Part shown: piece after piece, positions 28,227 to 33,477 of the stretch
Numbering within the stretch: the first letter of the stretch is position 1
How the letters are laid out: each line of letters opens with the position of its first letter
The notes under the pieces: generated by a model
The model's input: the letters and a program-made list of their open reading frames with translations, nothing else
The model's database searches: none
What the model was told of the DNA's origin: nothing
Assembly (NCBI GenBank): GCA_013138595.1
Contig: WTCM01000127.1
Location: 1-35,847 of the forward strand
Length of the DNA: 35,847 bases
DNA from: Methyloprofundus sp.
Lineage (GTDB): Bacteria > Pseudomonadota > Gammaproteobacteria > Methylococcales > Methylomonadaceae
Direction: 5' to 3'
Position numbers and translations under genes: made by a program

Positions 28227-28241
28227 AGTGTGGCTATCCAC

Positions 28242-28332
28242 TTAACACGGGACATAATCGTCATGTAGGTGCAGATTTATCTGCACTGTGCGACTAAAGT
28301 CGCCGCTACGAATAATGCTGCTCCCGTGTTAA
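28242..28332. repeat. Nested inverted-repeat element (REP-like, cloverleaf/three-way-junction geometry)
   Basis: Outer arms TTAACACGGGA (28242-28252) and TCCCGTGTTAA (28322-28332). Inner arms GTAG/CTAC enclose GTGCAGAT-TT-ATCTGCAC and GCGACT-AA-AGTCGC. Confidence 0.75.
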
Positions 28333-28345
28333 ACCTGTAGCCTAA

Positions 28346-28376
28346 AGCCTATTAAACTAGGCTGGGTTAGCTTTTT
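28346..28376 (+). terminator. Candidate intrinsic terminator after lpxC
   Basis: AGCCTA-TTAAAC-TAGGCT stem, possibly extended by AACC/GGTT, then GGGTTAGCTTTTT. Confidence 0.5.
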
Positions 28377-28409
28377 ATTGCGATGTAAATACTCCTCACA
28401 TGCTGTCAT

Positions 28410-29945
28410 TTAACAGCCAGATAAAGCTCTAAAATCATTGATAGAACCGACATTAATAATTTGTGTGCCAAAAATAGGAATTAGCACATAAATATTACCA
28501 TCAGTATGTAAGGCTAAATACGAATCAGTGGCAGAATAATAGCGGTAAGTGTAACCCGCGAATTCTAAAGTCTCTAAACTAGCAGGGCTAAAAAATTCAG
28601 GGTAGCTTTGTTCTGCCCAATGGAATATACAGCTAGCGGTTGAGACTGCCTCAGCTCCTTCACCGACTGTTAAGCTTAATTCAGCCATATCAACGCCCAG
28701 CGCATTCATTGCTAATAGGTTTATATTGAAGTGCCCATTAACTTTGGATGTACCGCTGATAAGCCCATTTGAGTCAACACTTAAGCCTTCTGGTAAGCCT
28801 GTCGCATTAAACCCTGTTGGATGATCACCCGCTGTTATTTGGTAGAAAAAACTTTGTTCACTGGTGATACTTGCGCTCAAAGCACTATTAATATCAGGAA
28901 TAGCGCCATTTCCACCATCAGCGGTATGTAAAGAGTAGCTTCCACCCCATTCACCATAAGTGCTGGATGTAATGCCAAAGGCAGTTGAGCTATTATAGCT
29001 AGATTGACCCGCTAGAATAGACACTTTAACGGTAGCTGTTTGATCCAGCCCTATAATGCCTGCATGTACCGCAGAGACAGCTAAGCTAGAGTCATCCGTA
29101 TAAATACCAGCCCCCCAAATACTCGTGTTATTCTCTCCTGTGACAGTAAAATGAAAAGCCGCGCCTACTGTATCGCGAAATGCCGCTAAATTATAAAACC
29201 CTGTCAACGGTAGTGAAAAACTACCCGGATAAGGAATTAATGCAGTATTTCCTGAGACATTAGAGACCGCATAACTACCATTCCATGCACTAAAGGAAGA
29301 CGAGTTGATGGTATTATAGTGAGACGCGATATAGCTTTCTTGCTCAGGAACAATGACGACGCGTACCGTGCCAGATTCACCAAGGCGTAACACGCCAGTG
29401 TGAATCGCCACTTTTGCTAAAGCAGAGTCATCGGAATAGACATTGCTTCCCCATAAGCCCTTATTTTCTTCATCCGCGATGACATTGAAATGGTAAACCC
29501 CTCCAAGGACATCACGAAAAGCGGTCAGATTCCCGGGGTCTGCTAGGACAGGGTTATCGCCACCATCATCTGTCGCAACAGAATAACTGCCTTCCCAGCT
29601 ATTATAATTTGCAGAAGTGACATTATGAGCAGTAGAACCACTATAAGAAGTCTGCCCCGCTTGTATAGTCACTTTAATGACACCGACTTGATCAGCCGCT
29701 AATAAGCCCGCATGAACGGCAGCGACTGCTATTTCCGTATCATCGGTATAAATGCCTGTCCCCCAGATTCCCCCTGTCTCTTGCCCTGTGACATAAAAAT
29801 AATAAACAGCCCCAATTTGGTCGCGATATTGAGTAATATCGGCTAAGTTATGGGGTAGTGGGCTGATGTTACGTGATGTTACTTGGTTACTGAATAGTAT
29901 GCAAAAACAAACACTCAGTAACATGATTATATTTTTAGTGTTCAT
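28410..29945 (-). CDS. Secreted protein with three tandem LCCL-like repeats, a He_PIG-like Ig-fold segment and a C-terminal Cys-bounded domain
   Basis: N-terminal signal peptide (MNTKNIIMLLSVCFCILFSNQVTS). Three repeats of [NLxxxRDxxGxxYHFxVxxxxxxxxWGxxIYTDDSxLAVxAVHAGxxxxxQxxxVKVxIxxGQxSYxxSTxxxITSxxYxxWxGSYSV]. Then TGLPEGLSVDSNGLISGTS (He_PIG-like) and CIFHWAEQSYPEFFSP...YTYRYYSATDSYLAL...GC. Confidence 0.8.
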   Translation of the reverse strand: MNTKNIIMLLSVCFCILFSNQVTSRNISPLPHNLADITQYRDQIGAVYYFYVTGQETGGIWGTGIYTDDTEIAVAAVHAGLLAADQVGVIKVTIQAGQTSYSGSTAHNVTSANYNSWEGSYSVATDDGGDNPVLADPGNLTAFRDVLGGVYHFNVIADEENKGLWGSNVYSDDSALAKVAIHTGVLRLGESGTVRVVIVPEQESYIASHYNTINSSSFSAWNGSYAVSNVSGNTALIPYPGSFSLPLTGFYNLAAFRDTVGAAFHFTVTGENNTSIWGAGIYTDDSSLAVSAVHAGIIGLDQTATVKVSILAGQSSYNSSTAFGITSSTYGEWGGSYSLHTADGGNGAIPDINSALSASITSEQSFFYQITAGDHPTGFNATGLPEGLSVDSNGLISGTSKVNGHFNINLLAMNALGVDMAELSLTVGEGAEAVSTASCIFHWAEQSYPEFFSPASLETLEFAGYTYRYYSATDSYLALHTDGNIYVLIPIFGTQIINVGSINDFRALSGC

Positions 29946-29960
29946 GATAGTTCTCCCTAA

Positions 29961-31051: not shown

Positions 31052-32518
31052 TTGTTATTTAATAGTTACGAATTTATATTCGGTTTTTTACCCGTCAGTT
31101 TATTGGTTTATTTTTATTTACAGAAAAATGGCTTTACTAGAGCAAGTACATTTTTTTTAGTATTTAGTAGCTTATTTTTTTATAGTTGGTGGAATATTTA
31201 TTATCTACCTATCATTTTAGGTTCGATGTTATTTAACTATAATATCGGTAATATACTATCTAGGAATTCGTATAATACAAAAATCCCCTTCAGTAAAAAA
31301 AATATTTTAATTTCTGGTGTTTTGATAAATCTTATTTTACTCGGGTATTTTAAATATAGTGATTTTTTTATTGATAATTTAAATACTGTCTTTACTTTAG
31401 ATATTGAACCACTTAATCTGCTCTTACCTCTTGCTATTTCATTCTTTACTTTTCAGCAAATCGCTTACCTTATTGATAGTTACCGTTTAGAAACTAAAGA
31501 GTATGACTTTTTAACCTATGCTGTTTTTGTCACATTTTTTCCTCAGCTAATAGCAGGCCCTATTGTGCATCACAAAGAGATGATGCCCCAGTTTGCTAAC
31601 AAACACGCTAAAAATATTAATTATAAAAATATAGCGCTGGGACTGTTTATTTTTAGCATAGGCTTGTTTAAAAAAGTAGTTATCGCGGACACCTTTTCAA
31701 TATGGGCAAAAGCTGGATTTGACCTTTCAATTAATTTAAATTTATTGGAAGCATGGGCAACAAGTCTATCGTATACATTCCAACTTTATTTTGATTTTAG
31801 TGGGTATACTGATATGGCAATTGGTTTATCACTTTTATTTAATATAAAATTGCCTATGAATTTTAATAGCCCTTATAAAGCGAACAATATACAAGATTTT
31901 TGGCGTAGATGGCATATGACCTTAAGTCGATTTTTAAGGGATTATATTTATATTCCTTTAGGTGGAAGTCGTAAAGGTAATTTTAGGGCTTACTGTAATA
32001 TTATGATAACCTTTATATTGGGTGGTATTTGGCATGGTGCTGGCTGGACCTTTATATTTTGGGGGGCATTACATGGGGGAGCTCTCGTTATTTATCATTT
32101 ATGGAGTCAATTAGGCATAAAGCTTTGGAGATATTTAGCTTGGTTTATAACCTTTAACTTTATTAATATTTCTTGGGTTTTTTTTAGAGCGAAGGACTGG
32201 GGAGATGCCATTAAAGTTTTGAGTGCTATGTTTAGTTTAAATGCTATTGTTGTACCCAAATACTTAGCTAACCAACTTTGGTTTTTAAAGCAATACGATA
32301 TTGAAATTAGTACTAAATGGCGTGATTTTTGGGGAGATGAGTGGATCCTAGTATGCATGATTGTTAGTTTTATTTTAATCCTAGGGTTTAAGAACTCATC
32401 TGAAAAACTAGAGTCTTTTAAACCTACAGCTTTAACAGCAATGGCAATAGGTGTATTGTTTTTTGTAGCATCAATTTCTATTAATGTAGAGAGTGAATTC
32501 TTATATTTTAATTTTTAG
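31052..32518 (+). CDS. MBOAT family O-acyltransferase (AlgI-like), TTG start
   Basis: MLFNSYEFIFGFLPVSLLVYFYL...SLFFYSWWNIYYLPIILGSMLFNYNIG...FFPQLIAGPIVHHKEMMPQF...YFDFSGYTDMAIGLSLLFNIKLPMNFNSPYKANNIQDFWRRWHMTLSRFLRDYIYIPLGG...GGIWHGAGWTFIFWGALHG, classical MBOAT. RBS CTGGAG. Confidence 0.95.
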   Translation: MLFNSYEFIFGFLPVSLLVYFYLQKNGFTRASTFFLVFSSLFFYSWWNIYYLPIILGSMLFNYNIGNILSRNSYNTKIPFSKKNILISGVLINLILLGYFKYSDFFIDNLNTVFTLDIEPLNLLLPLAISFFTFQQIAYLIDSYRLETKEYDFLTYAVFVTFFPQLIAGPIVHHKEMMPQFANKHAKNINYKNIALGLFIFSIGLFKKVVIADTFSIWAKAGFDLSINLNLLEAWATSLSYTFQLYFDFSGYTDMAIGLSLLFNIKLPMNFNSPYKANNIQDFWRRWHMTLSRFLRDYIYIPLGGSRKGNFRAYCNIMITFILGGIWHGAGWTFIFWGALHGGALVIYHLWSQLGIKLWRYLAWFITFNFINISWVFFRAKDWGDAIKVLSAMFSLNAIVVPKYLANQLWFLKQYDIEISTKWRDFWGDEWILVCMIVSFILILGFKNSSEKLESFKPTALTAMAIGVLFFVASISINVESEFLYFNF

Positions 32519-32526
32519 CTTACACA

Positions 32527-33477
32527 ATGTATAAACAATTTATTTTTATTTCAAGTTTAACTTTCGGTTTATTATTTATTATTTATACTATTATAGTATT
32601 TAATTATAAGATACTTTATATGGACAAAGAATATGCAGCATGGTTACATGTAAAAAATACAATCAATACAGCTACAAAAGACAAAGTTAATTTACTTGTT
32701 ATTGGAGATTCTCGCTCAAAGGCGGGGTTTATTCCAAATGAAGTAAAAGGTTTTACATCAATCAACTTGTCCTTAGGGGGTGCCTCGGCTGTTGAAGGTT
32801 ATTATACTTTAGAAAAGTACCTACAAAATAACCCTGCTCCAGATCATTTATTACTAAGTTATGTGCCCTATCATTTAGAAGATTGGAGTTCTTATTGGAA
32901 TAGGGCAGTCTCTTATAATTTTCTGAACGATAAGGATTATCAAGAGATAGAAAATAAAGCCAAAGAATTTAAGGAAATATCTATTTTAAGAAGAAAAAGG
33001 TCTTATTGGTACTATAAAAACCCTATTAATTATCGTAGCAATTTTAGAAATGGTTTTTTTAATTTGCGCTGGGGAAGAAATATGCAAGTCTTTCGAGATT
33101 CAATAGCGGATCGTGGGCATTATTTTTATGGTACTAGAAACTCTAGTAATAAGTTAAACAAAGACACTAAGCAACAAGATTTTGAAATTTCAAGGTTTCA
33201 AAATTATTATTTACGTAAGCTTTTAGATTTAGCAGAAAAGTCAGAAATTAAATTATATTTTTTTAATATGCCCTTTAATAAGGCATCATTTGATCAAGTA
33301 AAGCCATTGTACGTGACTCACTTTACTGATTACGTAAATCAGCTATCAAGTGATTACGAATTAAAGATCTGTAATAAAATAAATTTTATGGAAAATAATA
33401 ATTTTGGTGATTCATCACACTTATATAAAGGAGCAAGGAAAAATACAAAGAATGTGATGCATTGTCTTGCCCTTTAG
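32527..33477 (+). CDS. SGNH-hydrolase-like membrane-anchored protein, probable partner of the MBOAT acyltransferase
   Basis: N-terminal TM, block I-like LLVIGDSRSKAGFIP, C-terminal FGDSSHLYKGA (D..H pair), 8 bp downstream of the MBOAT gene. Confidence 0.75.
   Translation: MYKQFIFISSLTFGLLFIIYTIIVFNYKILYMDKEYAAWLHVKNTINTATKDKVNLLVIGDSRSKAGFIPNEVKGFTSINLSLGGASAVEGYYTLEKYLQNNPAPDHLLLSYVPYHLEDWSSYWNRAVSYNFLNDKDYQEIENKAKEFKEISILRRKRSYWYYKNPINYRSNFRNGFFNLRWGRNMQVFRDSIADRGHYFYGTRNSSNKLNKDTKQQDFEISRFQNYYLRKLLDLAEKSEIKLYFFNMPFNKASFDQVKPLYVTHFTDYVNQLSSDYELKICNKINFMENNNFGDSSHLYKGARKNTKNVMHCLAL

Follow-up and report, generated by a model that had tools for sequence, protein, structure and literature searches.

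The 35,847 nt stretch of Methyloprofundus DNA analysed here (which we refer to as the window) carries an intact gene for a probably secreted protein whose three tandem repeats are cysteine-free domains of the LCCL fold, not canonical four-cysteine LCCL modules (Table 1). By sequence comparison the repeats belong to a widespread branch of bacterial cysteine-free LCCL domains, which makes this gene a real find and not an extraordinary one. We favour the reading, at a probability of roughly 0.55, that the protein is a secreted modular binding protein that attaches, with low affinity and at several sites at once, to surface glycans or components of the matrix. The LCCL family is itself known and annotated in Pfam; the cysteine-free branch and the paired loss of its cysteines are, as far as could be seen, undescribed. 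To our knowledge research on LCCL has been confined almost entirely to animals and apicomplexan parasites, and a search of the open literature turned up no publication about LCCL proteins of bacteria, which is weak evidence as subscription journals were outside its scope.

Table 1 Features of the triple-LCCL gene and its product (positions count from the first nucleotide of the window)
Feature	Position	Strand	Basis
Complete ORF, 511 aa, putatively secreted triple-LCCL protein	28410..29945	(-)	Pfam and four orthologues
AGGGAG, putative Shine-Dalgarno-like site	29953..29958	(-)	8-13 nt upstream of ATG
Predicted signal peptide, residues about 1-24, no lipobox	29874..29945	(-)	Rule-of-thumb call
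LCCL repeat 1, residues 30-125	29571..29858	(-)	Pfam LCCL
LCCL repeat 2, residues 136-229	29259..29540	(-)	Pfam LCCL
LCCL repeat 3, residues 249-341	28923..29201	(-)	Pfam LCCL, AlphaFold2 and Foldseek
He_PIG-like Ig segment, residues about 346-428	28662..28910	(-)	phmmer 4nzj/4ogz; Pfam He_PIG in 2/5 orthologues
C-terminal module, residues 439-511	28413..28631	(-)	Motif C..WAE..YxYRYY..YLa..VG..GC
Orthologues in four other Methylococcales genomes			G139/L019, G007/L020, G034/L021, G076/L022

The Pfam LCCL model (PF03815) matched three stretches of the protein (E 8.5e-44, 148 bits vs. a cut-off of 22.6), with every single repeat exceeding the cut-off by itself, and the repeats scored 193, 268 and 208 against one another, where 500 shuffles reached maxima of 48-57. 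A profile built from 79 repeats found the cochlin LCCL domain (1jbi, E 9.2e-17) and the Rxt3 structure 8i03 (E 3.5e-11) in the PDB, and an AlphaFold2 model of repeat 3, made from the same 79-repeat alignment, was of high confidence (pLDDT 95.8, pTM 0.87) and contained the central helix and beta sheets of the LCCL fold. Foldseek placed 1jbi first for this model (TM 0.81, rmsd 2.0 Å, E 1e-4), with the Rxt3 chains of three Sin3/HDAC complexes next, and returned no other match with an E-value below 1. The Pfam match begins only at profile position 31-32; the structural alignment to 1jbi spans 93 columns, therefore the domain looks complete in the model, its first third being merely too diverged for the Pfam profile. 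The sequence-only reading had named three LCCL-like repeats, and both the profile search and the fold comparison with cochlin bear this out, its coordinates agreeing with our repeat alignment to within about 10 nt. The full-length model, made from an alignment of five sequences, was poor (pLDDT 57.5); Foldseek recognised in it the LCCL domain and, weakly, a He_PIG-like part, and nothing else.

The motif cores of repeat 3 (YTDDSSLAVSAVHAGII), repeat 1 (YTDDTEIAVAAVHAGLL) and repeat 2 (YSDDSALAKVAIHTGVL) fit the published LCCL motif YxxxSxxCxAAVHxGVI save for the cysteine and small changes, and the published domain has four conserved cysteines in two disulfides (PMC10892792). The 511 aa protein has cysteines at 13 and 15, within the signal peptide, and at 439 and 511, at the ends of the C-terminal domain, leaving residues 16-438 without any. 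We class the repeats as cysteine-free LCCL-fold domains for this reason and because a whole branch shares the absence of the core pair; bacterial repeats of this kind pass the Pfam cut-off yet lack the cysteines listed as a hallmark in the literature. Cochlin and the window repeats have in common the YxxxSxxxxAAVHxG core, GxxxYxxxxxNGIxS and a closing S-F/Y strand, whilst cochlin has cysteine in SSxC where the window repeats have alanine. Rxt3 (PF08642; 8i03, 8hpo, 8ga8), a subunit of the Sin3 HDAC complex, is the second-best fold match (TM 0.76), and its Pfam model also matches the window protein (E 4.8e-23). The Schizosaccharomyces pombe Rxt3 likewise has alanine at the cysteine site (DSDIATI), and, unlike the three repeats here, Rxt3 forms a single domain within a larger protein of a eukaryotic complex. 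A special kinship with Rxt3 was put to the test and is not supported, as it scores 45.9 bits with the cysteine-free and 45.0 bits with the cysteine-bearing bacterial profile. As Rxt3 has the same WGxxxYTDDS core, conservation of that core probably marks the fold, not an extracellular ligand site.

We then compared 158 LCCL repeats from 84 bacterial proteins, gathered mainly via one DNA pattern around WGxxYTD, so that rarer forms may escape; 156 were readable at both core cysteine columns, i.e. the FxC preceding the WG motif and the SSxC preceding AAVHAG. Both cysteines were present in 84 of the 156 and both absent in 72, with neither ever found alone (0/156), and the missing pair was replaced mostly by valine and alanine, a hydrophobic/small pair. 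This all-or-none state is what one would expect if the core cysteines form a disulfide. Because kinship among repeats inflates the pair count, a tree was built with both cysteine columns removed, on which the cysteine state needs two changes only, their direction being unrooted, and a single clade for all cysteine-free repeats is weakly rejected (p-AU 0.029). The main cysteine-free branch, supported at 100/99 in the tree that kept both columns, comprises eight named phyla (Pseudomonadota, Verrucomicrobiota, Planctomycetota, Bacillota, Kiritimatiellota, Thermotogota, Cyanobacteriota and Ca. Fermentibacterota) and one unplaced record. The window repeats fall within it, and its proteins elsewhere contain one to three repeats each. 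The second case is in Spirochaetota (L064, L065), where the same pair is missing and the repeats score 108-119 bits with the cysteine-bearing profile vs. 87-94 with the cysteine-free one, so that their cysteine-free state is apparently separate from the main branch. The absence of cysteine noted in the sequence-only reading is therefore real in this protein, but is not peculiar to it, being the property of a large bacterial branch.

The arrangement of signal peptide, three LCCL repeats, He_PIG-like segment and C-terminal domain occurs in five genomes, the window's included, at 45-61% identity with every ORF intact. In the tree, repeats 1 of different species cluster together, as do repeats 2, and therefore the triplication predates the split of these species, an old feature that has been kept. 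Repeat 2 of one orthologue (L020:658-2253) contains two additional cysteines (CIGC), located at a site unrelated to the LCCL core pair. A Pseudomonadota MAG protein (L041) shares the three repeats and the Ig-like segment but ends in another C-terminus. LCCL of any kind is found in about 1-2% of the genomes sampled at class and phylum level; the family of the source organism also includes unrelated proteins (L004-L006) whose LCCL domains do bear the cysteines. Relatives were found by the repeat-alignment search, whereas a whole-protein search of genome contigs found none; phage records and viral contigs held no relatives, and plasmids gave only two matches, both in Rhodococcus at <60% identity.

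LCCL is known mainly from animal extracellular proteins, and the idea that the gene is a recent horizontal gain from a eukaryote draws on this and on its patchy spread, LCCL being present in 8 of 151 genomes of the source organism's family. The nearest relatives of the window repeats are nevertheless bacterial and come from many phyla. With the cysteine columns masked, cochlin scores 65.9 bits with the cysteine-bearing bacterial profile vs. 53.7 with the cysteine-free one, whilst the window repeats score better with the cysteine-free profile, which itself includes them; the gene's GC content is 0.43 against 0.41 for the window. The bacterial LCCL tree and the masked-profile scores lead us to reject this origin as extremely improbable, and the sequence-only reading's picture of LCCL as mainly eukaryotic gives way to one of bacterial domains scattered across many phyla.

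The triple-LCCL frame is unbroken from its stop codon to its ATG start. Its product is most hydrophobic at residues 6-24, the second-highest stretch lies at residue 72, within repeat 1, and there is no other strong membrane-spanning candidate in the protein. All five orthologues (window protein counted) have a signal-peptide-like head, which makes secretion probable, as had been claimed, and AxAR-type sites precede a conserved xSP(F/L)P. A Sec-type signal peptide would thus export the protein, which is probably soluble once secreted. The gene converges with lpxC and diverges from a DUF218 gene, and Pfam annotation of the window genes revealed no killing or immunity gene nearby. The flanking genes of the window are absent from the stretches examined around all four orthologues, lpxC is followed by different genes in those other members of the genus that were checked, and no conserved neighbourhood was found; we therefore rejected prediction of function from neighbouring genes. 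Between lpxC and the triple-LCCL gene (28227-28409) lie the adjacent short palindromes GCGACTTTAGTCGC and GTGCAGATAAATCTGCAC, with a REP-like look. At 31052-33477, an MBOAT (DltB-like) gene with a GC content of 0.30 and the next, 316 aa gene (0.29) depart from the 0.41 of the window, and this low GC suggests that both were recently acquired.

Candidate ligands come from animal LCCL proteins: the LCCL domain of cochlin appears to be its binding site for sulfated heparan sulfate/heparin (PMC9333281), and the LCCL domain of Akhirin reportedly binds bacteria (PMC12839204). A role in LPS binding had also been proposed from the sequence, and its target would be the LPS of other Gram-negative bacteria or of the cell itself; CRISPLD2/Lgl1 reportedly binds lipid A (PMC10892792) and the LCCL domain of Limulus factor C is reportedly involved in LPS binding (PMC9333281). 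Set against these reports are the acidic character of the mature protein (computed pI 4.4), the variable genes after lpxC and the lack of a nearby killing or immunity gene. The repeats are acidic in the window protein (net charge -4 to -5), whereas several orthologues have neutral or basic ones (-5 to +2 across all), and because of this variation LPS binding lacks specific support; we consider it improbable.

In other bacteria some cysteine-free LCCL proteins also contain F5/8 type C, Laminin_G_3, Ig, BspA-type LRR and MBG domains. Members of the same branch in Pararhodobacter (L031/L035), Planctomycetota (L040) and Opitutia (L047) are mostly long, extracellular-looking proteins, which differ from the window protein in their partner domains and in having no C-terminal module. 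One Planctomycete protein of >1400 aa (L042:2-4372) combines a protein-kinase-like N-terminal start with a cysteine-free LCCL near its C-terminus. Attachment to glycans or matrix is favoured because of the animal LCCL ligands and the F5/8 type C, laminin-G-like and Ig partners. A purely structural protein of the surface or matrix, i.e. a passive scaffold in which the repeats act as stable spacers or protein-contact domains with no glycan ligand, is a less likely account. Rxt3 has the same fold inside a multiprotein complex, which shows that such a domain can mediate contacts between proteins, and the surface charge of the repeats varies between orthologues; however, some partner modules are carbohydrate-binding types, and most ligands reported for LCCL are glycans or the surfaces of bacteria. 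Under the favoured attachment reading, the three LCCL-fold domains, a fold supported by sequence and model, would present a repeated binding surface, with the Ig-like segment as a spacer. This segment resembles the Ig-like heads of Bacteroides alpha-galactosidases (4nzj, E 9e-8). Pfam He_PIG (PF05345) matched two of the five orthologues (best E 1.6e-9) and not the window protein; together these matches support the He_PIG-like call.

The C-terminal domain, described from the sequence as bounded by cysteines and confirmed as such, is modelled at a pLDDT of about 77-92 across most of its length within the full-length model. It is one copy of a module of about 72 aa with the pattern C..NWAE..YPxxFxP..YxYRYYxxTNxYLG..VG..GC (L097, L104-L129). 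The source genome has four further copies; 11 of 61 family genomes sampled contain the module, at up to 12 copies per genome, and among 249 phylum genomes only one besides the window's own carries it. It was absent outside Methylococcales among the cysteine-free LCCL proteins collected. Pfam and NCBIfam searches, known C-terminal sorting domains included, with 20 copies gave a best E of 0.019 and no hit common to most, and a PDB sequence search gave no match; unclassified as it is, the module is perhaps a more novel part of the protein than the LCCL repeats. It sits mostly at the extreme C-terminus, ending in GC, of diverse, otherwise unrelated secreted proteins in the family, among them trypsin-like peptidases, PhoD and phosphoesterase proteins, lipases, an endonuclease and cyclophilins. 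As six proteins carry it near the N-terminus, it is not exclusively a C-terminal tag. Its union with hydrolases elsewhere could hint at an enzyme or enzyme inhibitor on an adhesive chassis, which we regard as very improbable, domain searches having found no catalytic family in the 511 aa. In the attachment reading, this cysteine-closed module may keep the protein on the surface of the cell or in the extracellular matrix, or aid its export.

The observations of the sequence-only reading are thus confirmed and its interpretation partly supported, the adhesive or carbohydrate-binding role that it suggested still being the most probable one. We advance only tentatively, and with some doubt, the wider proposal that the cysteine-free branch forms a distinct bacterial matrix-binding class, long parted from cysteine-bearing LCCL, and that the C-terminal module, hitherto undescribed, anchors many secreted proteins of Methylococcales at the surface or serves in their export. 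In animals folding defects of LCCL matter, as in DFNA9 deafness, and in apicomplexan parasites the transmission of malaria relies on LCCL. The bacterial cysteine-free branch offers a disulfide-independent version of the domain, which helps to tell the requirements of the fold apart from the contribution of the disulfide, and the C-terminal module may be the common mark of a group of surface or secreted proteins, in methanotroph-type bacteria, that escapes current domain libraries.
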